Assembly: GCA_937928045.1 (NCBI GenBank)
Contig: CALFWO010000062.1
Location: forward strand, 62,001-126,000
Direction: 5' to 3'
DNA: 64,000 nt
From: an uncultured Saprospiraceae bacterium
GTDB taxonomy: Bacteria; Bacteroidota; Bacteroidia; Chitinophagales; Saprospiraceae
Part shown: in pieces, positions 6,989 to 16,855 of the stretch
Numbering within the stretch: the stretch's first letter is position 1
How the letters are laid out: every line of letters starts with the position of its first letter
Made by a program: the position numbers and the translations under genes
The notes under the pieces: generated by a model
What the model was told of the DNA's origin: nothing
Seen by the model: only the letters and a program-made list of their open reading frames with translations
Databases searched by the model: none

Positions 6989-7570
6989 ATGCCTGAGTCC
7001 CCTGAGCAAAATCGTTCTAAAGTGTTAAGTAGTAGTGAACTGTTAGAGGAGTGGAAGATTGTTCAAGCAGCTCAAAAAGACGCTAGTGCATTTGGGAAGC
7101 TTTATTCCAAGTATTTTCCACAAATTTTCAAGTTTATTTATCGGAGGACTGACAATGAACAACTGACTGGTGATCTCACCGCTCAAGTTTTTTTAAAAGC
7201 CCTTCAAAAAATCCACTCCTACTCATATAAAGGTGTTCCGTTTTCAGCTTGGTTGTTTCGAATAGCTTCTAACGAGGTGGTTCAGCACTACAGAGACATC
7301 GGCAAAAACAGGATTGTCGCTTTGGAAAACTACCAAGTTAAAGAATTAATTTCTGAGGAAAAGAGCGAATCAAATGAGGAAGACCTCAAACTTATGATTC
7401 AGTATCTCGGAGAATTAAAGGAAGAAGAGATCCAACTGATTGAGTTGCGATTTTTTGAGCAAAGACCTTTCAAGGAAATAGCTCAAATTATGGATCTCAC
7501 TGAAAATAACACTAAAGTAAAAACCTATCGTATTCTGGAAAGACTGCGAAAGAAAATTATTAGTAATTAA
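6989..7570 (+). CDS. ECF-type RNA polymerase sigma factor
   Basis: The 193-residue protein has sigma region 2 at about residues 32-100 (DASAFGKLYSKYFPQIFKFIYRR, then FSAWLFRIASNEVVQHYRD) and sigma region 4 at about residues 130-190 (LKEEEIQLIELRFFEQRPFKEIAQIMDL then a helix-turn-helix ending RILERLRKKI). This is an ECF subfamily factor that should redirect RNA polymerase to a small regulon. The next gene starts 41 bases downstream and codes for a protein with a short cytosolic N-terminus and one membrane span, the arrangement expected of an anti-sigma factor. A weak -7-like TAGCCTTG is at 6968-6975, close to the start codon. The target promoters are unknown. Confidence 0.88.
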   Translation: MPESPEQNRSKVLSSSELLEEWKIVQAAQKDASAFGKLYSKYFPQIFKFIYRRTDNEQLTGDLTAQVFLKALQKIHSYSYKGVPFSAWLFRIASNEVVQHYRDIGKNRIVALENYQVKELISEEKSESNEEDLKLMIQYLGELKEEEIQLIELRFFEQRPFKEIAQIMDLTENNTKVKTYRILERLRKKIISN

Positions 7571-7611
7571 AATCAACATAAGTTAACTAATACAAAAAGA
7601 ACTTCAAGCTT

Positions 7612-9312
7612 ATGGAAAGAAACCGATACAAATTTATTTTTAACCAAACTCCTCCGACTGATAAGCAGATCGCTAATCATATGGATTTTGATGCGCTATT
7701 GTCGCAGCATCAGAAATCTAAAACAAAAGGTGGTGTGGTAAAAGTATTGTATTGGTTGGCTCCAATTGCTGCCGCAGCAGCCGTTCTAGGTTGGTTCTTT
7801 TTTGGAAACTTAGTGGATGCTTCTTCTCAATATCAAAAAGCAGAACAAGCATATTTCGATCAAAAGCCATTCGTGAATCCACCTATGCCTGAACTGCAGG
7901 CCAAATTTGTCTCTCAAAAATTCGATGCTTTTGAAGGTGGTTCTTTTACATACGAAAACGGCTCAACGGTAATCGTTCCAAAATCTGCTTTTGTCAATGA
8001 GGATGGAGAAGTTATTGGCGGCGAAGTTGAAATTCTTTACAGAGAATATCATGATTATGTAGATTTCTTCCTTTCGGGAATTCCAATGCATTATGATTCT
8101 TCTGGTGTAAGATATCAATTAGAATCCGCTGGAATGATGGAACTTTATGCGGAGCAAAACGGAAAACGCCTAAATGTCGCACCAGGAAAAGAAATTCAAG
8201 TAGAGTTAAAGGGTGATGTTCTTGTGGATGCAAATCAGCCAAATAAACTTCCCAATTTTAATATTTATAGATTAAATGTTGAAGATCGCAATTGGGATTA
8301 CAAAGGAAAAGATAAAATACAATGGGCGGATCAGTTGCCAAAAGTGAAATCAGTTGCTGCAAGTGCTAAAAAAGTATTTGAAATAGAGAAGAAATCTATA
8401 GCTTCCGAAAGAACTTCTGCTTTAGAAAGTGTCGAAAAAAACATTCCAAAGCCAAAAATTCCAAGAAGACCATCTCAAACTCGTCCTGATGATTTTACAA
8501 TTGATTTAGCATTCAATGAATTTGATGATCCTTCACTTGCTGGATTAAAAGAAAAATATGAAGGCTCATTATGGAAGGTTGTAGAAAATGAGCAGACTTT
8601 TAGCGCAGAATTGGCAAAGGGAGTTGAATGGGAAGATATGGATTTGAAAAAAATCAATGAGCTTGATTTCGAACTTACTCTTTTCTCTAGTAATAACTCC
8701 ATCAAAGTTATTGTAAATCCAGTTCTCACTGGTGAAAAATTCATTGAAGCAGAAAACAACTTTAAAATCTCACAGGTTGCTTTTGAGTACCAAATGATTT
8801 CTTGGGAAAAAGAAGTAGCATTGGAAAAAGAATCATTGAATCGCAAATATGATGCAATGCTGTTGGCGGCTAATAATGATTATGAAGATACCATTAACGG
8901 AGCTAAGAAGAATATGAATACTTCTCTTAAGAGAAAAGTAATCAATCGCTTTACAGCTAACAAATTAGGTATCTGGAATTGCGACTTCCCTACCGAGCCA
9001 TATAATGCTGAAATTAATGGTCAGTTTGTTGATGATGAGCAGAAAGTTTTAAATGAAAATACAGGATATTTAGTTGATCAAAACAGAAATAGTCTAGCGA
9101 AGTTTTACACTACTGATGACACCCCTGTATCTTATGATAGCAAGTCAGCAAACCTGATGTGGATTGTAGCCGAAGATGGAAACATCGCAGTTTTTAAGCC
9201 TGAGAATTTTAATAAAATAAAAAATAGTCAAGACTCTTATACATTTAAAATGAATAGAGTTGATAAAAAAATAAATTCAGAAGCGGATTTACGCCGCGTA
9301 CTTGAATTTTAG
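7612..9312 (+). CDS. Single-span membrane protein with large periplasmic region, candidate anti-sigma partner
   Basis: The 566-residue protein has about 42 cytosolic residues, one transmembrane helix at about 43-66 (VLYWLAPIAAAAAVLGWFFF), and a periplasmic part of about 500 residues. The first periplasmic domain (about 100-230) contains GSTVIVPKSAFV and GGEVEILYREYHDYVDFFLSGIPM-like segments, a module seen in many Bacteroidota envelope proteins but unnamed to my knowledge. A central Pro/Lys-rich linker (about 270-300) and a Trp/Glu-rich C-terminal domain follow. There is no zinc-binding anti-sigma motif. Position directly after an ECF sigma gene suggests it holds the sigma factor at the membrane and senses an envelope signal; this is inference. 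A strong terminator follows, closing a two-gene unit. Confidence 0.72.
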   Translation: MERNRYKFIFNQTPPTDKQIANHMDFDALLSQHQKSKTKGGVVKVLYWLAPIAAAAAVLGWFFFGNLVDASSQYQKAEQAYFDQKPFVNPPMPELQAKFVSQKFDAFEGGSFTYENGSTVIVPKSAFVNEDGEVIGGEVEILYREYHDYVDFFLSGIPMHYDSSGVRYQLESAGMMELYAEQNGKRLNVAPGKEIQVELKGDVLVDANQPNKLPNFNIYRLNVEDRNWDYKGKDKIQWADQLPKVKSVAASAKKVFEIEKKSIASERTSALESVEKNIPKPKIPRRPSQTRPDDFTIDLAFNEFDDPSLAGLKEKYEGSLWKVVENEQTFSAELAKGVEWEDMDLKKINELDFELTLFSSNNSIKVIVNPVLTGEKFIEAENNFKISQVAFEYQMISWEKEVALEKESLNRKYDAMLLAANNDYEDTINGAKKNMNTSLKRKVINRFTANKLGIWNCDFPTEPYNAEINGQFVDDEQKVLNENTGYLVDQNRNSLAKFYTTDDTPVSYDSKSANLMWIVAEDGNIAVFKPENFNKIKNSQDSYTFKMNRVDKKINSEADLRRVLEF

Positions 9313-9349
9313 GAATAGTGTAAGTCCTATTTTAACTATCCTTTCTTAG

Positions 9350-9382
9350 ATTCCCATCTTTCATAGATGGGAATTTTTTTTT
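9350..9382 (+). terminator. Rho-independent terminator of the sigma/anti-sigma unit
   Basis: ATTCCCATCT at 9350-9359 pairs perfectly with AGATGGGAAT at 9365-9374 around a five-base loop, followed by a run of T to 9382. Confidence 0.92.
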
Positions 9383-9386
9383 GCCA

Positions 9387-9444
9387 TTGATTAAGATCAA
9401 CGGATTTATTGATCGAAATCAATTTCTAAATTGATAACCGTCAA
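9387..9444 (+). promoter_or_regulatory. Three phased FNR/CRP-type boxes upstream of the CBS-domain gene
   Basis: Three dyads lie at 9387-9400 (TTGAT-TAAG-ATCAA), 9409-9422 (TTGAT-CGAA-ATCAA) and 9431-9444 (TTGAT-AACC-GTCAA). The first two match the FNR consensus TTGAT-N4-ATCAA exactly and the third has one mismatch. Their starts are exactly 22 bases apart, so all face the same side of the helix. The last centre (9437.5) is about 41 bases before the start site expected from the -7 element at 9467-9474, the class II activator position. The only gene downstream is the CBS-pair protein at 9511. Confidence 0.7.
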
Positions 9445-9466
9445 TGTATTATCACCTTTACATCTG

Positions 9467-9474
9467 CATCTTTG
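9467..9474 (+). promoter_or_regulatory. -7 promoter element for the CBS-domain gene
   Basis: CATCTTTG differs from TAnnTTTG only at its first base. No -33 TTG occurs at the usual spacing, which fits an activator-dependent promoter served by the boxes at 9387-9444. The start ATG is at 9511. Confidence 0.45.
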
Positions 9475-9510
9475 AATTGTAAATATTCAATAACCATAAA
9501 ATTATTTATA

Positions 9511-9960
9511 ATGAACAAGATCAGACCTGTAGCAGAAATCATGGTAACCAACCCCATTACTGTTAGCCCAAACGATCAACTAAAGGTGATTTATGAAATT
9601 TTTCAAACGGAGAATATTCATCACTTGCCAGTAGTTGTAGGAGATACTTTAGTCGGAATGATAAGTAAGTCAGATCTACTTTTTTTCCTAGATGGAAAGA
9701 TCTATCAAGATAAGTCTCTATATGCAAACACAATTGAAAAAATTCGTCTGAATAGTTTTAAGGCAAAAGATATTATGACAAAGAATTTAGCCACAATGGA
9801 ATCTACGGAGCCCATTCGAACGGCAATTAACTTATTTACAATAAATAAATTTCATGCTTTACCAATATTAGAAAATGAGAAGTTAGTGGGCATTGTTACC
9901 ACATTAGATTTGATTTTCGAATTAGATAAGGAGCCAGTTAGTTTGGCAGATTACAACTAA
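9511..9960 (+). CDS. CBS-pair domain protein
   Basis: The Met at 9511 is chosen over an upstream TTG because it begins directly at the first CBS motif. The 149-residue cytosolic protein consists of two CBS domains: the first (about 5-65) with MVTNPITVSPND and HHLPVVVGDTLVGMISKSDLL, the second (about 85-145) with IMTKNLATMESTEPI and FHALPILENEKLVGIVTTLDL. CBS pairs bind adenine nucleotides such as AMP, ATP or SAM and sense energy or redox state. No catalytic domain is attached. The upstream FNR-like array suggests expression under low oxygen or nitrosative conditions. Two hairpins follow the stop. Confidence 0.9.
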   Translation: MNKIRPVAEIMVTNPITVSPNDQLKVIYEIFQTENIHHLPVVVGDTLVGMISKSDLLFFLDGKIYQDKSLYANTIEKIRLNSFKAKDIMTKNLATMESTEPIRTAINLFTINKFHALPILENEKLVGIVTTLDLIFELDKEPVSLADYN

Positions 9961-10081: not shown

Positions 10082-13000
10082 TTATCGAAGTACAATCAAC
10101 TTTTCAATAGCAGAATTTCCTTGATCATCACTCAACCTCAAGAAGTAAGTTCCAGGAGCAATATTATTCAATTCCATTTGTTCTTGAACATTCATTCCAT
10201 TAGTTACAATTGATTTGATAAATACACCCCTAATATCATAGAGTCCCAAGTTCAATTCTTTGAATTCCTGAAGTTGTATGTTTACTAAAACATAGTCAGA
10301 TGTCGGATTAGGAAATACTTTCCAACTATTCAATCCTTCAATGTCAAAGGCTGAAGTCAAATCCAATACAAACGTTTCCGAATAAGTACAACCGTTCGCA
10401 TCAGTAACATTAACCGTATATGTTCCCAATCCTATGTCATCAATCACGGGGCCTACTTGACCTGTTGACCAATTGTAAGTATATGGAGCTTCCCCTCCAA
10501 TGACACTGGCCTGAAGCATTCCATCATTTTCGTTACTACTTGGATAAGTAATCCCAAAATTCACATCCATTGTACCAGGACTTTGAATATCGAATTGACT
10601 AATGTAGTTGCAACCTGCAGCATCAATAATTTGAACGATGTAACTACCTTCTTCTAGATTTTGCTGATTCAACAAAGTTGATCCATTGCTCCAACTAATT
10701 TGATATGGTGGTGTTCCTTCTTGTATTTCAATGTTTATGGAACCATCAGCCATACCTTCACAAGAAACATGTTCAACACTTCCACTGGCTTGAAAAACAT
10801 TATCACTATTTTCTACAGTAACCGAATTCATCGCAGTACAACCGTTATCATCTGTACTGGTCACCATATAAGTACCAGCTTGCAAGCTGGTAATGCTAGA
10901 ATTCAATCCCCCATTACTCCATTCGTAACTAATTTGGCCAGTTCCGCCAAATCCTTGGGCAGTGGCCGAAGCCAATCCTCCACAACCTCCATCATTTCCA
11001 GTAACATCAACTACAAGTAATTCAGGCTCAGAAATAGTAACATCAATTACGTTTCCACATCCCTGTCCGTCTGAAATTGTTACAGTATAACTTCCTGCTC
11101 CAGATGTGATGTTAGATACAACTGAAGGAATTGACCAATTGTAAGTATAGTTCCCTGAACCTCCTATAGGAAGTATTTCTGCAAATCCATCTTGCAAGCC
11201 GTTACAAGAGGCCGATGAAGTATTAATATTGTAATCAAGCAAACAACCAGCTCCCTCCATCACGGTAAATGTTTCTTCATAACTACAACCTTGGCCATCT
11301 GAAATTGTCACTGTATAATCACCTGCCGCAAGACCACTAATGCTGGCTCCTGACATTGCATTGTCCCAAACAATATTAAGATTACCAACACCACCATTTA
11401 CTCCATTCAAAGTGATTGTTCCATCATTAATACCCGGTCCGGAAGTTTCTCCTATAGTAAAATTGTTTATTGTAATTCCAGGAACAAAATCTATCATTCC
11501 TGATATTGTTGTTTCGCAACCATTTCCATTTATTACTTGAACGGTGTACGGACCAACAGGAAGGGTTACCGTTGGCAAGTTGGGGGCTCCAGCAACAGAC
11601 CAATTAAAAGTTATTGGCGAAACTGGATTATTTACCAACACCGTGGCTTGTCCTCCCATCATACTACCACAAGGGGCAGCTTGTTCAATATTTGTCGCTG
11701 AAAAATCTGAACAATCAACTGCTCCATCACTAACGATATAAGTATCTTCAAAACTACAACCCAATTCATCAGTAATAGTAACAGTATAAGTACCAGCTAG
11801 TAATCCTGAAATATTTGGACCAACCATAGCATTGTCCCATGATATATTTAAATTTCCATTTCCACCTGTTATATCACTTAAATCGATGGAACCATCATTC
11901 GCTCCAGCGGCAGATGTTGGTGTGATCGTAGAGTTGCCAACATCGATTGCCGGCGTAAATTCTATCTCACCAAAAACAGTTATTTCACAACCATTCCCAT
12001 TTATTACTTGAACACTATATGGTCCAGTTGGTAGTATTACTTCTGGTGCGTTTGGGGTTCCGGGAAATGACCAATTGTATATTACTGGTTGAATTGGATT
12101 TGGAACTTCAACAAAAGCTGTGCCCTCACTCTGTATTCCACAAGGCGCAGGAAGACTAGTTGTACTAGCTGTGAATGTTGAACAATCAACTGCTCCCTCT
12201 CCAACTATAAAAGTCTCTTCAAAACTGCAATCTAATTCATCAGTGATTGTAACCGTATACACCCCAGCCAGCAATCCAGAAATATTTGGACCAACCATGG
12301 AATTGTCCCATGTTATATTTAGGTTTCCGTTTCCTCCAGTAATATTACTTAATACGATGGAACCGTCACTAGTTCCGGTTGCAGATGTTGGTGTGATCGT
12401 TGAATTTCCAACATCGATTGCCGGCGTAAATTCTATCTCACCAAAAACAGTTATTTCACAACCATTCCCATTTATAACTTGAACACTATATGGTCCAGTT
12501 GGTAGCATTACTTCTGGTGCGTTTGGGGTTCCGAGAAATGACCAATTGTATATTACTGGTTGAATTGGATTTGGAACTTCAACAAAAGCTGTGCCTTCAC
12601 TCTGTATTCCACAAGGCGCAGGAGTACTAAAAGTACTGGCTGCAAATGTGGAACAATCGATTGGATCGGCCACAATTTCCACAGAATCTACAAAGCTACA
12701 TTGATTTATATCTGTGATTGTTACGGTATAAATACCTGCAGTTAATCCAGAAATATCGGGTCCAGAATTTATCGGTTCCCAAGCATAGCTTAGGGTACCT
12801 GTTCCTCCAATACCTGTGGCAGAAATAGACCCATCACTCGCTCCTATTACTGATTCATTTACAATAGTGAAAGTTACATCTATTGGATCTGGTTCTAAGA
12901 TTTCAACTGTTCGAATTAGCTCACAATTATTAGCATCTGTCAGCGTAACCGTGATTGGACCAGTTGGTAATCCTAATACACTTGGGCCATCAGCATTATT

Positions 13001-16000
13001 TGACCAATTGAAAATATAATTGGGCGTTCCTCCTAAACCGATTGCATTGACCATTCCATCATTAAATCCAGGACAACTTAATGGTGTTGTTTCAATTAAA
13101 ATATCTAACAATGAACAATCAACTCCATCTGATAGAACTGATACGGAAGTAGAAACTTTACAACCAGTTTCATCTGTAATATCTACATCATACACTCCAG
13201 CAGCCAAGTTTGAAATTGAGTTTGTGATTCCATAAGGAACTCCCCAATTAAATGAAAGTATCCCAACACCACCAACCCCGGAAGCTGAAATTGCCCCATC
13301 ATTTGCTCCTACAACACTTTCATTAGTTACTACAAAACTTGGAATAATTTCAGCTGGTTCGGTTAATTCCACACTATCTTCAAGCGTACACCCGTTTTCA
13401 TCTTCCAAAGATATCGTATAAACATCGGCAACTAAATTAGAAATTGTTAATCCTGATTGAGCAATATTCCAAGTATGTGAAAGTGCTCCAGCACCCCCAG
13501 TAGGTAATGCCGTTATTGAACCGTTTTCATTTCCAAAACAATTGGGAGTAGTCATCTCAAAAGTTACGCCAATTGCGGGTGGTTCATCTACTAAAACATC
13601 AAAGAAAGTTTCACAGCCAGCACTGTCAATAATATTTGCGCAATAAGATCCAGGAACTACATTGGTAAGTACAGATCCAGATGGACCATGACACCAATTA
13701 ACCACATAAGGTTCGGTACCTCCTTGAATGCTAGCTTCAACAACAGCATTGTCATCACCATTACAAAGAATTTTTTCAACAACAACCCCTGCTGCTACAA
13801 GTTCGGCAGGTTCTTCAATTTCTTGAGTCAATACAGTGGAACAATCAGCGCCATCAGTTACAGTTACAGAAACATCTCCGGCTGGTAAGGTCAAATGAAC
13901 ATTTCCAAATGCTCCTGGAACCGACCAATTATAAGTGATCGGATTTACACCATTTGCAGTGACTATAGCTGTTCCATTTGATTCACCAAAACAACTAACA
14001 TCAGTTCCAGCTATTGAACTAATAAAATTGTTACAGTTAAATTCATTGATCGTTACAGAACTAACGAATTCACAACCTTGAGCATCGGTTGCGGTTACCG
14101 TGTAAAGACCTGGAGCAAGGTTAGTCAACATTGGGCCAGTTCCATGAATTCCCCAATCATAAGTGAACCCGCCATTTCCTCCTGAAGCAGTTGCAGTTGC
14201 AGTACCATCATTTAATCCAATTCCAGTCTCATCAGTCGAACTAATATTTATTGTAATAGCATCCGGCTGAATGATATCAAAATTAAGAATCTGTTCACAA
14301 CCAGTATTATCAGAAACCGTTACGGTGTAAGGACCTGCAAAAAGATTGGTAGGATTAGATCCTGTTGGAGTTCCTTCCCAACTATAAGTAACAGGATCAA
14401 TGGCGCCGGTTACTTGTATATCAATTTCTCCAGAAGCAGTTCCTGGACAAATAATATCTGTCTGAGAACCTTGGACGACCAAAGCACTGCAATCGAATGG
14501 TTCGACTTCTATATTAATTGTTTCTTGGCAATTATTGGCATCCGTTACTGTCAGACCATAAATTGCTGGTGATAAACCGTTAGCAATATTCGAATTATTG
14601 GTAAGATCATGAGGCCAGTCATACAACCAGCCTCCAACTCCTCCTATTGGATTGGCTGTAATTATTCCATCGTTATTACCAGCACCGGTAATCGGTGTTA
14701 CTGTAAATGGAATAGTGATAACATCAGGTTCGGATATCGTGAAATTTTCAATTATTTCACATCCGCCATCTTCTTTTACCGTTACGGAATAATCTCCGGC
14801 ACATAAATTTGAAACCGAAACATCATTAAGTCCTCCGATTCCATCACTCCATTCATAAGTGAAATTTCCTGACCCACCATTGATAGAGACAGATGCTGTA
14901 CCATTACATTGAGCGTTGCAAACCACTGGAGTTAGCGTCACATCCGTTGAAAAAGTACAAGGCCCAGTAATATTTATATTATCGATGTATAGATTATTTC
15001 CATAACCAGATTTATTGATAAATGCTACAGTAATATTATCAGGATTACCGAGTACAGAAAGATCAATTGTTACGCTACTCCATTCATTTGGAAATGGATT
15101 AAACGGACTTGAATAACTTTGTGTTGTAGACAATGACAATCCGCCATCCCGCAAAACTATTTGATCAAAATTATTTCCGCAGTCTACGCTTACTGCAACA
15201 ATTAAAGAATCATAATTATTAGTACTGCCTTGTGCATAATAAGCGTAGGCATAATCAAATGTCAAAGTTGTTTCGGTAGGTGAATCAAATTCATAAATTG
15301 GGGAAATCAAATAATCCAATTTGCCAACTCCATCGGCTGAGTTATAATTATTAAACCAAACACAAGCATTCGACATTCCATAACCACTGGAATTTGTAGT
15401 TCTTTCCCAAACATTCCCGTCGGCATCTGGGTTCCTTGTAATCATTCCATTAGCAGTAGGATTAAAATCAATATCTTCGAATCCTTCTTCCAAGGGTAAA
15501 GCTACTGGAGATAAAATAGATGACAAAATGGTCAACGAATCATTTATTAAATTTTCATCAACATTTCCATTTGGAGAATCTATCCAAGTTTGAAAAGTAT
15601 AGTTCCCTAGAGGTGGAACAAATCCAGTCAACATTACATCTTGTGTTTCACCAGATATAATTGAGCCCGTCCAATTCAAAACTTCAGGAGTATTTGCATC
15701 AACTTGATAAGTAATATTCAAAGTTGTAACGGTCTCCAATCCAAAATTTGTTATCGAAATGTTTGGTGTAACTTGAGCATTATCACAGGCCAATTGTCCT
15801 GGCGATTTTATTTCAACAGCAGCAACGTCGTAGTCAAAAAACGAACAAACAGCTGTCGCATTATTTGCCAAAAGAATTCTCTCATTTGCCATTGTCGTTC
15901 TCATTTCGGCAATTTGATCATTGGTAAATGAATTAACACATTGATCAGGAGAAGCATAATCCATAAAATTTATATACATCGCTTCATTACCACAACTTAT

Positions 16001-16855
16001 ATCCCCCGTTGGCCATCCATTAGAACAATTTCCCATCCAGCCCGAAGGGGTATCAATATTAGGAGTATCTGCAAAACCATCATCAGCTGCGCAAGACTCA
16101 TCATCGAATGGGTGAGGTAATCCTAAGTAATGGCCGGTCTCATGGGTTAAGGTTCCTGATCCCGATTGACCATGACCTGGTCCACCAAACCATCTGTAAT
16201 CGACTATAGAACCATCTCTAACTTGACCAGCTGAACTTGGGTAATAGGCATAGCCAGTTGTTCCTCCTCCAGCCGTTGTTCCTGGAATAGGTAAAGTCCA
16301 AATATTGTAATATTGAAAGGATGGCCATGCAGTAGGAGGCTTAATTTCCGTTTCGATATTGTCATCATTTAAGTCTGATCCTGTCACCTCTAAATTATGC
16401 CTTGTAATTCCGTTGGTAGGATTTCCATTCGGATCGATTGAAGCCAAACAAAATTGGATTTCAGCATTGCCAATGAATTCTTGCCAACGTGTTGGGGCCG
16501 AAGCAAATGTTGGATTCTCTGCATTAAAGTCTTGATTCAACACATCGATCTGCGCTTGGATTCTTGCCTCAGACAAATTTTCACCAGTTCCAATGACTTC
16601 CCCACTATGAATAACATGGACCACGACGGGCACCCGAATAATTGGTGGCAACAGTGATTTTGAATCCATCTTAGCTCTATCAGGCATACTTTTCATAAAA
16701 TCCTCAAAGTCCTTCTTCATTCTTGGATTCTCATCTAAAAGTTGTTTGACCTTTTGATCAGAATGACATCCTAATCTATGGTTCTTCTGTTGAGCAAAAG
16801 TAAAAACGCTGCAAAGTATAGACAGCAATAAGAAAATAGGTTTGGCTAATTTCAT
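10082..16855 (-). CDS. Giant secreted M43-type metalloprotease with SprB-like repeats and T9SS sorting domain
   Basis: The 2257-residue product starts with a Sec signal (residues 1-21). Residues about 70-330 form a pappalysin-like (M43) metzincin domain with the zinc motif HETGHYLGLPH (His238, Glu239, His242, His248) and a Met-turn-like INFMDYAS. Residues about 345-620 look like adhesion and jelly-roll modules. From about 625 to 2160 there are roughly twenty SprB-like repeats, each with a Cys near the start, a Y.W core, G.YTVTITD and a second Cys. Three of these lie in 157-residue tandem units. The last 80 residues are a T9SS type A sorting domain (VFPNPTSDYV, ending KLIVLR). It should be exported and anchored or released at the surface. 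The combination suggests a protease held on a long adhesive stalk; substrate unknown. Confidence 0.87.
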   Translation of the reverse strand: MKLAKPIFLLLSILCSVFTFAQQKNHRLGCHSDQKVKQLLDENPRMKKDFEDFMKSMPDRAKMDSKSLLPPIIRVPVVVHVIHSGEVIGTGENLSEARIQAQIDVLNQDFNAENPTFASAPTRWQEFIGNAEIQFCLASIDPNGNPTNGITRHNLEVTGSDLNDDNIETEIKPPTAWPSFQYYNIWTLPIPGTTAGGGTTGYAYYPSSAGQVRDGSIVDYRWFGGPGHGQSGSGTLTHETGHYLGLPHPFDDESCAADDGFADTPNIDTPSGWMGNCSNGWPTGDISCGNEAMYINFMDYASPDQCVNSFTNDQIAEMRTTMANERILLANNATAVCSFFDYDVAAVEIKSPGQLACDNAQVTPNISITNFGLETVTTLNITYQVDANTPEVLNWTGSIISGETQDVMLTGFVPPLGNYTFQTWIDSPNGNVDENLINDSLTILSSILSPVALPLEEGFEDIDFNPTANGMITRNPDADGNVWERTTNSSGYGMSNACVWFNNYNSADGVGKLDYLISPIYEFDSPTETTLTFDYAYAYYAQGSTNNYDSLIVAVSVDCGNNFDQIVLRDGGLSLSTTQSYSSPFNPFPNEWSSVTIDLSVLGNPDNITVAFINKSGYGNNLYIDNINITGPCTFSTDVTLTPVVCNAQCNGTASVSINGGSGNFTYEWSDGIGGLNDVSVSNLCAGDYSVTVKEDGGCEIIENFTISEPDVITIPFTVTPITGAGNNDGIITANPIGGVGGWLYDWPHDLTNNSNIANGLSPAIYGLTVTDANNCQETINIEVEPFDCSALVVQGSQTDIICPGTASGEIDIQVTGAIDPVTYSWEGTPTGSNPTNLFAGPYTVTVSDNTGCEQILNFDIIQPDAITINISSTDETGIGLNDGTATATASGGNGGFTYDWGIHGTGPMLTNLAPGLYTVTATDAQGCEFVSSVTINEFNCNNFISSIAGTDVSCFGESNGTAIVTANGVNPITYNWSVPGAFGNVHLTLPAGDVSVTVTDGADCSTVLTQEIEEPAELVAAGVVVEKILCNGDDNAVVEASIQGGTEPYVVNWCHGPSGSVLTNVVPGSYCANIIDSAGCETFFDVLVDEPPAIGVTFEMTTPNCFGNENGSITALPTGGAGALSHTWNIAQSGLTISNLVADVYTISLEDENGCTLEDSVELTEPAEIIPSFVVTNESVVGANDGAISASGVGGVGILSFNWGVPYGITNSISNLAAGVYDVDITDETGCKVSTSVSVLSDGVDCSLLDILIETTPLSCPGFNDGMVNAIGLGGTPNYIFNWSNNADGPSVLGLPTGPITVTLTDANNCELIRTVEILEPDPIDVTFTIVNESVIGASDGSISATGIGGTGTLSYAWEPINSGPDISGLTAGIYTVTITDINQCSFVDSVEIVADPIDCSTFAASTFSTPAPCGIQSEGTAFVEVPNPIQPVIYNWSFLGTPNAPEVMLPTGPYSVQVINGNGCEITVFGEIEFTPAIDVGNSTITPTSATGTSDGSIVLSNITGGNGNLNITWDNSMVGPNISGLLAGVYTVTITDELDCSFEETFIVGEGAVDCSTFTASTTSLPAPCGIQSEGTAFVEVPNPIQPVIYNWSFPGTPNAPEVILPTGPYSVQVINGNGCEITVFGEIEFTPAIDVGNSTITPTSAAGANDGSIDLSDITGGNGNLNISWDNAMVGPNISGLLAGTYTVTITDELGCSFEDTYIVSDGAVDCSDFSATNIEQAAPCGSMMGGQATVLVNNPVSPITFNWSVAGAPNLPTVTLPVGPYTVQVINGNGCETTISGMIDFVPGITINNFTIGETSGPGINDGTITLNGVNGGVGNLNIVWDNAMSGASISGLAAGDYTVTISDGQGCSYEETFTVMEGAGCLLDYNINTSSASCNGLQDGFAEILPIGGSGNYTYNWSIPSVVSNITSGAGSYTVTISDGQGCGNVIDVTISEPELLVVDVTGNDGGCGGLASATAQGFGGTGQISYEWSNGGLNSSITSLQAGTYMVTSTDDNGCTAMNSVTVENSDNVFQASGSVEHVSCEGMADGSINIEIQEGTPPYQISWSNGSTLLNQQNLEEGSYIVQIIDAAGCNYISQFDIQSPGTMDVNFGITYPSSNENDGMLQASVIGGEAPYTYNWSTGQVGPVIDDIGLGTYTVNVTDANGCTYSETFVLDLTSAFDIEGLNSWKVFPNPTSDYVLVNIQLQEFKELNLGLYDIRGVFIKSIVTNGMNVQEQMELNNIAPGTYFLRLSDDQGNSAIEKLIVLR
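11243..12655 (-). repeat. Three tandem 471-bp units inside the M43/SprB gene
   Basis: Equivalent Cys codons fall at 12653, 12182, 11711 and 11243, giving spacings of 471, 471 and 468 bases (157, 157 and 156 residues). The first two units are nearly identical at DNA level: 11910-12165 matches 12381-12636 with only a handful of substitutions. The third is clearly diverged. Each unit codes for two SprB-like domains (one starting APCG, one NDGS/SDGS). This points to a recent internal duplication. Confidence 0.85.

Follow-up and report, generated by a model that had tools for sequence, protein, structure and literature searches.

The CBS gene and its surroundings

The window, that is, the whole 64,000-nucleotide stretch of DNA that was analysed, contains a short gene whose product matches the CBS family PF00571 over two stretches (E 2.9e-27, first Met left off). 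The nearest named relative of this protein is 75% identical and belongs to an uncultured Saprospiraceae bacterium; a scan of genome contigs with it gave a single close named locus, the other five being distant. Both CBS motifs, read by eye, carry the pattern G-h-h-[ST]-x-x-D. An intrinsic terminator isolates the CBS promoter from the upstream gene (Table 1), and a similar stem with a T run is present in one relative (L013). On the other side of the CBS gene, the minus strand of positions 10082 to 16855 encodes a repeat-rich protein of 2257 amino acids that has an HETGH motif close to its start; judged by eye, it may be a secreted, M43-like metalloprotease carrying adhesin-type repeats.

Table 1. 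Features of the CBS promoter region (window coordinates) and copies of a small membrane-like protein (locus coordinates)
Feature	Position	Strand	Description
Intrinsic terminator of the upstream gene	9348-9376	+	12-pair stem, then T run
Dyad 1, distal	9387-9400	.	TTGATTAAGATCAA; perfect; core TGATN4ATCA 9388-9399; extra site of the CBS promoter
Dyad 2	9409-9422	.	TTGATCGAAATCAA; perfect; core 9410-9421; corresponds to the distal member of the conserved pair
Dyad 3, proximal	9431-9444	.	TTGATAACCGTCAA; one mismatch to TTGATN4ATCAA; core 9432-9443; centre 9437.5, about -41
-7-like element	9467-9474	+	CATCTTTG; 5/6 match to TAnnTTTG
Putative transcription start	9479	+	inferred from the -7-like element
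CBS-pair gene	9511-9960	+	ATG 9511; 149 aa; sole gene served by the promoter
Small membrane-like protein	L129:2094-2339, L136:2323-2568, L139:1230-1454, L154:14151-14378, L157:6421-6636, L158:10517-10735

An evenly spaced dyad array

A sequence-only reading of this DNA had reported three FNR-type dyads ahead of the CBS gene, and a pattern search confirmed them: with zero, zero and one mismatch from the distal to the proximal, their starts lie exactly 22 bases apart. Measured against the degenerate core TGAYN4RTCA, the core of the proximal dyad has no mismatch at all. The whole window holds 12 sites at up to one mismatch against a shuffle mean of 8.9, and 17 of 100 shuffles reach 12. In other words, single sites are ordinary in this AT-rich window, but the cluster is not. 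When the 198-base intergenic region was dinucleotide-shuffled 20,000 times, no site arose in 18,731 of the shuffles, one in 1,233, two in 36 and three in none. The three dyads are a real, evenly spaced array. Given the phasing, cooperative binding, as proposed earlier, is plausible.

Conservation upstream of related CBS genes

The CBS protein was searched against 248 genomes of the family, 179 of which gave a match at E 1e-15. We assembled 90 loci, one per genome, consisting of the best 30 (the present gene included) and 60 from further down the list; where a genome had a second match, this was left out, as were some others, including G101 and also G135 with its internal stop. One locus with only 13 bases upstream (L035) was dropped, leaving 89 upstream regions. 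The present gene aside, the CBS relatives are 38 to 75% identical, and some may be paralogues. The scan covered 250 bases, and two cores, with one mismatch allowed in one of them, were counted as a pair.

A perfect TGAYN4RTCA core occurred in 79 of the 89 upstream regions, against a mean of 2.0 and a maximum of 8 in 200 shuffles. As controls, other stretches of these loci were scanned, and a perfect core was seen in 11 of 89 inside the gene, 4 of 89 downstream and 6 of 89 between -600 and -350, the last of these also holding one 22-bp and one 23-bp pair. The 22-bp phasing, for which conservation among orthologs had been suggested as a check, was retained as a pair at 22 or 23 bp (66 of 89 upstream regions, 50 at 22 and 16 at 23) but not as a triple, which was present in 3 of 89: the present genome, L088 and L092, the latter two with a mismatched site. 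Shuffles gave on average 0.015 pairs at a spacing of 22 and 0.005 at 23, and at most one at any spacing; 23 of the 89 upstream regions had no 22/23-bp pair. Two sites 22 bases apart precede the CBS gene of G159, a genome of the same genus. The conserved unit is the pair, and the third site is particular to the present promoter. Relatives do not retain the outer T of the half site.

These data also bear on the view that the repeats are a product of chance or a repeat of no regulatory role. Single sites are indeed ordinary in AT-rich DNA and most of those that we could place lie inside genes, but no shuffle out of 20,000 produced three sites, and both place and spacing are conserved in relatives, so that we give this view practically no weight.

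Beyond the CBS gene, the perfect 22-bp pair was found in 166 of 248 family genomes, with up to 19 copies per genome, and the reversed pattern in 3. In a sample of the phylum, 51 of 395 genomes had the pair and 1 had the control pattern. By taxonomic distance, the pair was present in 6 of 6 genomes of the same family, 12 of 13 from a second family within the order, 26 of 79 from other orders of the class and 7 of 297 elsewhere.

Predicted class II geometry of the promoter

Downstream of the array lies a -7-like element resembling TAnnTTTG, which we take to be the Bacteroidetes -7 consensus. With a start near 9479, the centre of the proximal dyad would fall at about -41. When the 66 relatives with a pair were aligned on the proximal dyad, the most conserved downstream bases were an A at +30.5 and TT at +33.5/+34.5 from its centre. 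At a spacing of 22, the A was present in 43 of 50, the first T in 45 of 50 and the second in 49 of 50; at a spacing of 23, the counts were 15, 15 and 16 of 16. Since the offset of the -7-like element is equal for both spacings, it is the proximal dyad that is tied to the promoter, while the distal dyad shifts by one base. The class II position claimed for the proximal dyad is thus borne out by 66 relatives in which its distance to the -7-like element is fixed, the value of -41 itself resting on the putative start. The lack of a TTG at -33 was likewise correct for this promoter, with none between 9432 and 9467.

REC-Crp fusions as candidate regulators

The presence of Crp/Fnr-family regulators in the genome, expected if the dyads are operators of this kind, was confirmed: five proteins score above the HTH cut-off, two of them receiver-Crp/Fnr (REC-Crp) fusions and the other three plain Crp proteins. 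One of the fusions, P0004 (contig C8, 352 aa), has a receiver (PF00072), a cNMP_binding domain (PF00027) and HTH_Crp_2 (PF13545) in one chain, and its operon is on another contig than the CBS gene. In its helix KETCIR, phmmer aligns the E and the R with those of CRP and FNR. The recognition helix of FNR reads E-x-x-S-R, a pattern that P0004, with E-T-C-I-R, does not have. E-[TS]-x-I-R was found in 16 of 18 aligned rows, the exceptions being the second fusion of the genome, L115 (E-S-L-V-R), and G159_L202 (E-S-V-T-R). In a tree of the 18 rows, P0004 pairs with L204 of G159 (support 100/100, 68% identical). L115 forms a long branch, the place of which is unsure; it is 46% identical to the FixL-linked G091_L208 and 37% to P0004. 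The genus relative G159 has at least three REC-Crp genes (L202:3572-5182, L203 and L204); that in L204 is the syntenic partner of P0004, and that in L202, the one with the E-S-V-T-R helix, is convergent with a second CBS gene.

The earlier proposal of an FNR/CRP-type activator holds in one respect, the array being of the Crp/Fnr operator type, but the best candidate is a receiver-Crp fusion and not an Fe-S FNR. An Fe-S FNR of the E. coli type, binding the array directly and sensing oxygen, would suit the two sites that are perfect FNR consensus. However, an FNR-like N-terminal cysteine cluster was found in none of the five Crp-type proteins over the cut-off (L008, L010 and L011 inspected by eye). 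P0004 has cysteines at 52 and 319 and L115 at 51 only, with none in the first 40 residues. Moreover, the loss of the outer half-site T in relatives fits the I or V at the position of the FNR serine. We regard a direct role of such an FNR as highly improbable.

Possibly, a one-component Crp/Fnr protein of the L008, L010 or L011 type is the real activator, with the link to REC-Crp being indirect. Three HTH_Crp_2 proteins of this kind are over the cut-off, and L011 carries S-R in its recognition helix like FNR, but it has V in place of the conserved E, and L008 and L010 lack both the E and the S-R of FNR, reading Q with T-T and Q with T-S, respectively (all by eye). Furthermore, the dyad pairs co-occur with REC-Crp and precede REC-Crp and FixL-like genes. 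A plain Crp protein as the activator seems to us unlikely. With a REC-Crp hit defined at E 1e-40, 153 of the 248 family genomes had both pair and REC-Crp, 13 the pair only, 22 REC-Crp only (that is, without a perfect 22-bp pair) and 60 neither. The resulting odds ratio of 32 is uncorrected for relatedness, and with 8 candidates scored per genome some misses may be false. In the 13 pair-only genomes (G027, G078, G151, G236 and nine others), either REC-Crp was missed or another regulator reads the pairs.

FixL-like kinases beside the CBS genes

In many relatives, the REC-Crp gene adjoins a gene for a FixL-like kinase, and a FixL heme-PAS signature was also found upstream in 41 of the 90 CBS loci, divergent from the CBS gene in all 41. 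None of 40 control stretches of the present genome had a FixL or REC-Crp signature. The motifs HD.Y and G[IT]GR, which we take to hold the heme histidine and the FG-loop arginine, respectively, were present in all nine aligned FixL-like relatives. For the kinase of one relative, FixL chains were the top PDB matches, with its PAS domain matching FixL 1d06 at 9e-29. The kinases of the relatives carry the signature of the FixL oxygen-sensor PAS domain and are predicted to bind heme.

At the 33 paired loci with a divergent fixL, a -7-like element lies on both sides, about 30 bases from the respective dyad centre, with a mean match of 0.70 on the CBS side; on the fixL side, two adjacent offsets score 0.49 and 0.45. 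The other 33 paired loci have the element on the CBS side alone (0.62), the opposite side scoring no more than 0.36, and this at a different offset. With a divergent fixL, the pair thus resembles a bidirectional class II module in which each dyad serves one promoter.

In 41 of 90 loci, the CBS gene and a FixL-like kinase gene have one upstream region in common, which might be taken to mean that the pair autoregulates the neighbouring regulator, the CBS gene being incidental, or that the dyads are repressor operators. Against this, the proximal dyad lies upstream of the -7-like element at a fixed distance, also at loci without fixL, and in the present genome the region serves the CBS gene alone. 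Repression or autoregulation accordingly appears quite improbable to us.

In the window, a sigma-70-type gene, ECF-like by its size and regions, and a gene for a 566-aa protein without a Pfam match lie 5' of the CBS gene (6989 to 9312). The same order of sigma-70-type, 566-aa and CBS genes is found in G159 (L206), which fits a CBS gene that has moved away from fixL in this genus or, alternatively, a different paralogue.

The PAS kinase P0005, operon-mate of P0004, shares about 41% identity with the FixL-like kinase of L158. It lacks the His and the Arg where FixL-like proteins read SEHDGYL and IGIGREV, and so does not have the FixL heme-PAS signature. The syntenic kinase of G159 (L204) also lacks the heme residues, as seen by eye. 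The other 33 matches in the present genome (E 1e-10) begin no earlier than query residue 103, past the places of the heme signature.

Genes preceded by dyad pairs in the family

The genes behind the pairs were surveyed in 30 first-place loci and in 20 regions chosen around listed pairs, many of them with several pairs. This gave 92 perfect 22/23-bp pairs, some counted twice where loci overlap, of which 5 lie inside ORFs. For 72 of the 92, a gene start is 40 to 130 bases away, which yielded 75 distinct protein sequences; at least two of these are shortened copies of others, in the Na/Pi and beta-lactamase groups below. Among the 25 of 39 matched Pfam families that were listed, we count 16 Usp, 6 CBS and 5 PAS-histidine kinase proteins, 3 each of radical SAM, Na/Pi cotransporter and beta-lactamase fold, and 2 each of P-type ATPase, REC-Crp, Hsp20, Thioredoxin_3 and DUF3471. 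The one radical SAM target that was tested scored above the cut-off for hemN, and pairs also lie 216 to 278 bases before three cbb3 oxidase I/II genes. By its gene content, the target set of the family would be of a microaerobic and dormancy type.

A small membrane-like protein (by eye) of 72 to 82 amino acids recurs in these regions, with a dyad pair 52 to 80 bases before it; the L129 copy had no NCBIfam match, and several copies adjoin a REC-Crp gene.

Sites elsewhere in the genome

A genome scan for single TTGATN4ATCAA sites proved uninformative as a check on a regulon. It returned 84 sites versus 8 for the reversed pattern, a control that is misleading because the reversed pattern carries TAG, which is likely depleted in genes. 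Of the 84 sites, 42 were placed, and 9 of these (21%) are intergenic, compared with 15% of that DNA being non-coding; a clear single-site regulon did not emerge among them. Searches at 22 bases, with one mismatch, and at 23 bases found no second pair in a promoter position in this genome. Two candidates had no usable promoter position: a 23-bp pair at C42:3727 lies inside a long ORF, and a 22-base pair with one mismatch at C17:74575 stops roughly 9 nt short of a small ORF. In the P0004 operon, two perfect cores precede the kinase start by 83 and 204 nt; they are 121 nt from each other, and a 22/23-bp pair is absent.

Model for control of the CBS gene

In the mechanism that we favour, a receiver-Crp/Fnr fusion would be the activator of a class II, activator-dependent CBS promoter. 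The kinase P0005 would activate its operon-mate P0004 by phosphorylation, REC-Crp dimers would bind the TGAYN4RTCA dyads on one helix face, and the proximal dimer, at about -41, would touch RNA polymerase and thereby switch on the CBS-pair gene. We consider it probable that the array serves as operator for a class II promoter with a REC-Crp fusion as its activator, binding and phosphorylation control being predicted steps. With somewhat less assurance, we believe that P0004 itself is this activator; the remainder of our confidence falls on L115, which is a real alternative and leaves the overall estimate as it is, because L115 is also a REC-Crp fusion.

As to the signal, the sequence-only reading had suggested a low-oxygen or nitrosative switch. 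Low oxygen is probably the signal for the family, judging by its gene content and FixL-like kinases, but in the present genome it is only a candidate signal: P0005 is without the heme signature, and a search for ccoN did not find it, the best score being 27.7 bits versus a cut-off of 583. A nitrosative switch found no support.

A broader reading joins these observations, and we offer it as a tentative and, taken as a whole, rather doubtful one. The 22/23-bp pair would be the signature operator of REC-Crp, on which two bound dimers come into contact through their receivers and are thereby locked into a tetramer. Originally, the pair would have stood between fixL and its CBS partner as a bidirectional class II module, with one dyad for each of the two promoters, and the circuit from FixL to REC-Crp would extend across the Saprospiraceae and probably their order. 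In the present genome, heme sensing would have been lost, a single promoter left and a third site gained.

The arrangement amounts to a candidate promoter code for a large and poorly studied family, two dyads 22 to 23 bp apart whose proximal member lies about -41 from the start, and this code would predict a low-oxygen or dormancy-type regulon and its regulator from sequence alone. The present locus appears to be a case in which sensory input was lost while the operator remained.

Relation to known systems

The targets of the FixL-FixJ-FixK system of Alphaproteobacteria include cbb3 and hemN, and both are also among the pair targets of the relatives. Further likenesses are the FixL-type heme-PAS kinase of the relatives and a Crp/Fnr-type output on TTGA-type boxes, as in the FnrN/FixK consensus given in PMC4999443. 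In contrast to that system, receiver and Crp/Fnr output are here combined in one protein, the sites come as phased pairs, and the kinase of the present genome lacks the heme residues. The parts are of known kinds. The open-licence literature searched yielded no example of their combination, a FixL-linked REC-Crp with a conserved 22/23-base dyad pair that often lies between divergent genes, nor a description of such a system in Bacteroidetes, absence from that literature being weak evidence.

Class II promoters of E. coli FNR have TTGATN4ATCAA dyads with the proximal centre near -41. The CBS promoter shares these dyads and has its proximal centre near a predicted -41, but its candidate regulator is without Fe-S cysteines, its -7-like element is of the Bacteroidetes type, and dyad pairs are found in most relatives.

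The mycobacterial DosR regulon is under heme-kinase control and includes universal stress proteins, Hsp20 and the lone CBS-pair protein Hrp1. The gene set described here is similar in its predicted heme-kinase-type control and in containing the first two of these together with a lone CBS-pair protein of its own, whereas the output domain is unrelated. Among 43 PDB sequence matches of the CBS protein (E 0.001), no chain is named as Hrp1, and a weaker relation is possible. Judging by the loci of the relatives, a lone CBS-pair protein may have its place next to a FixL-type kinase.
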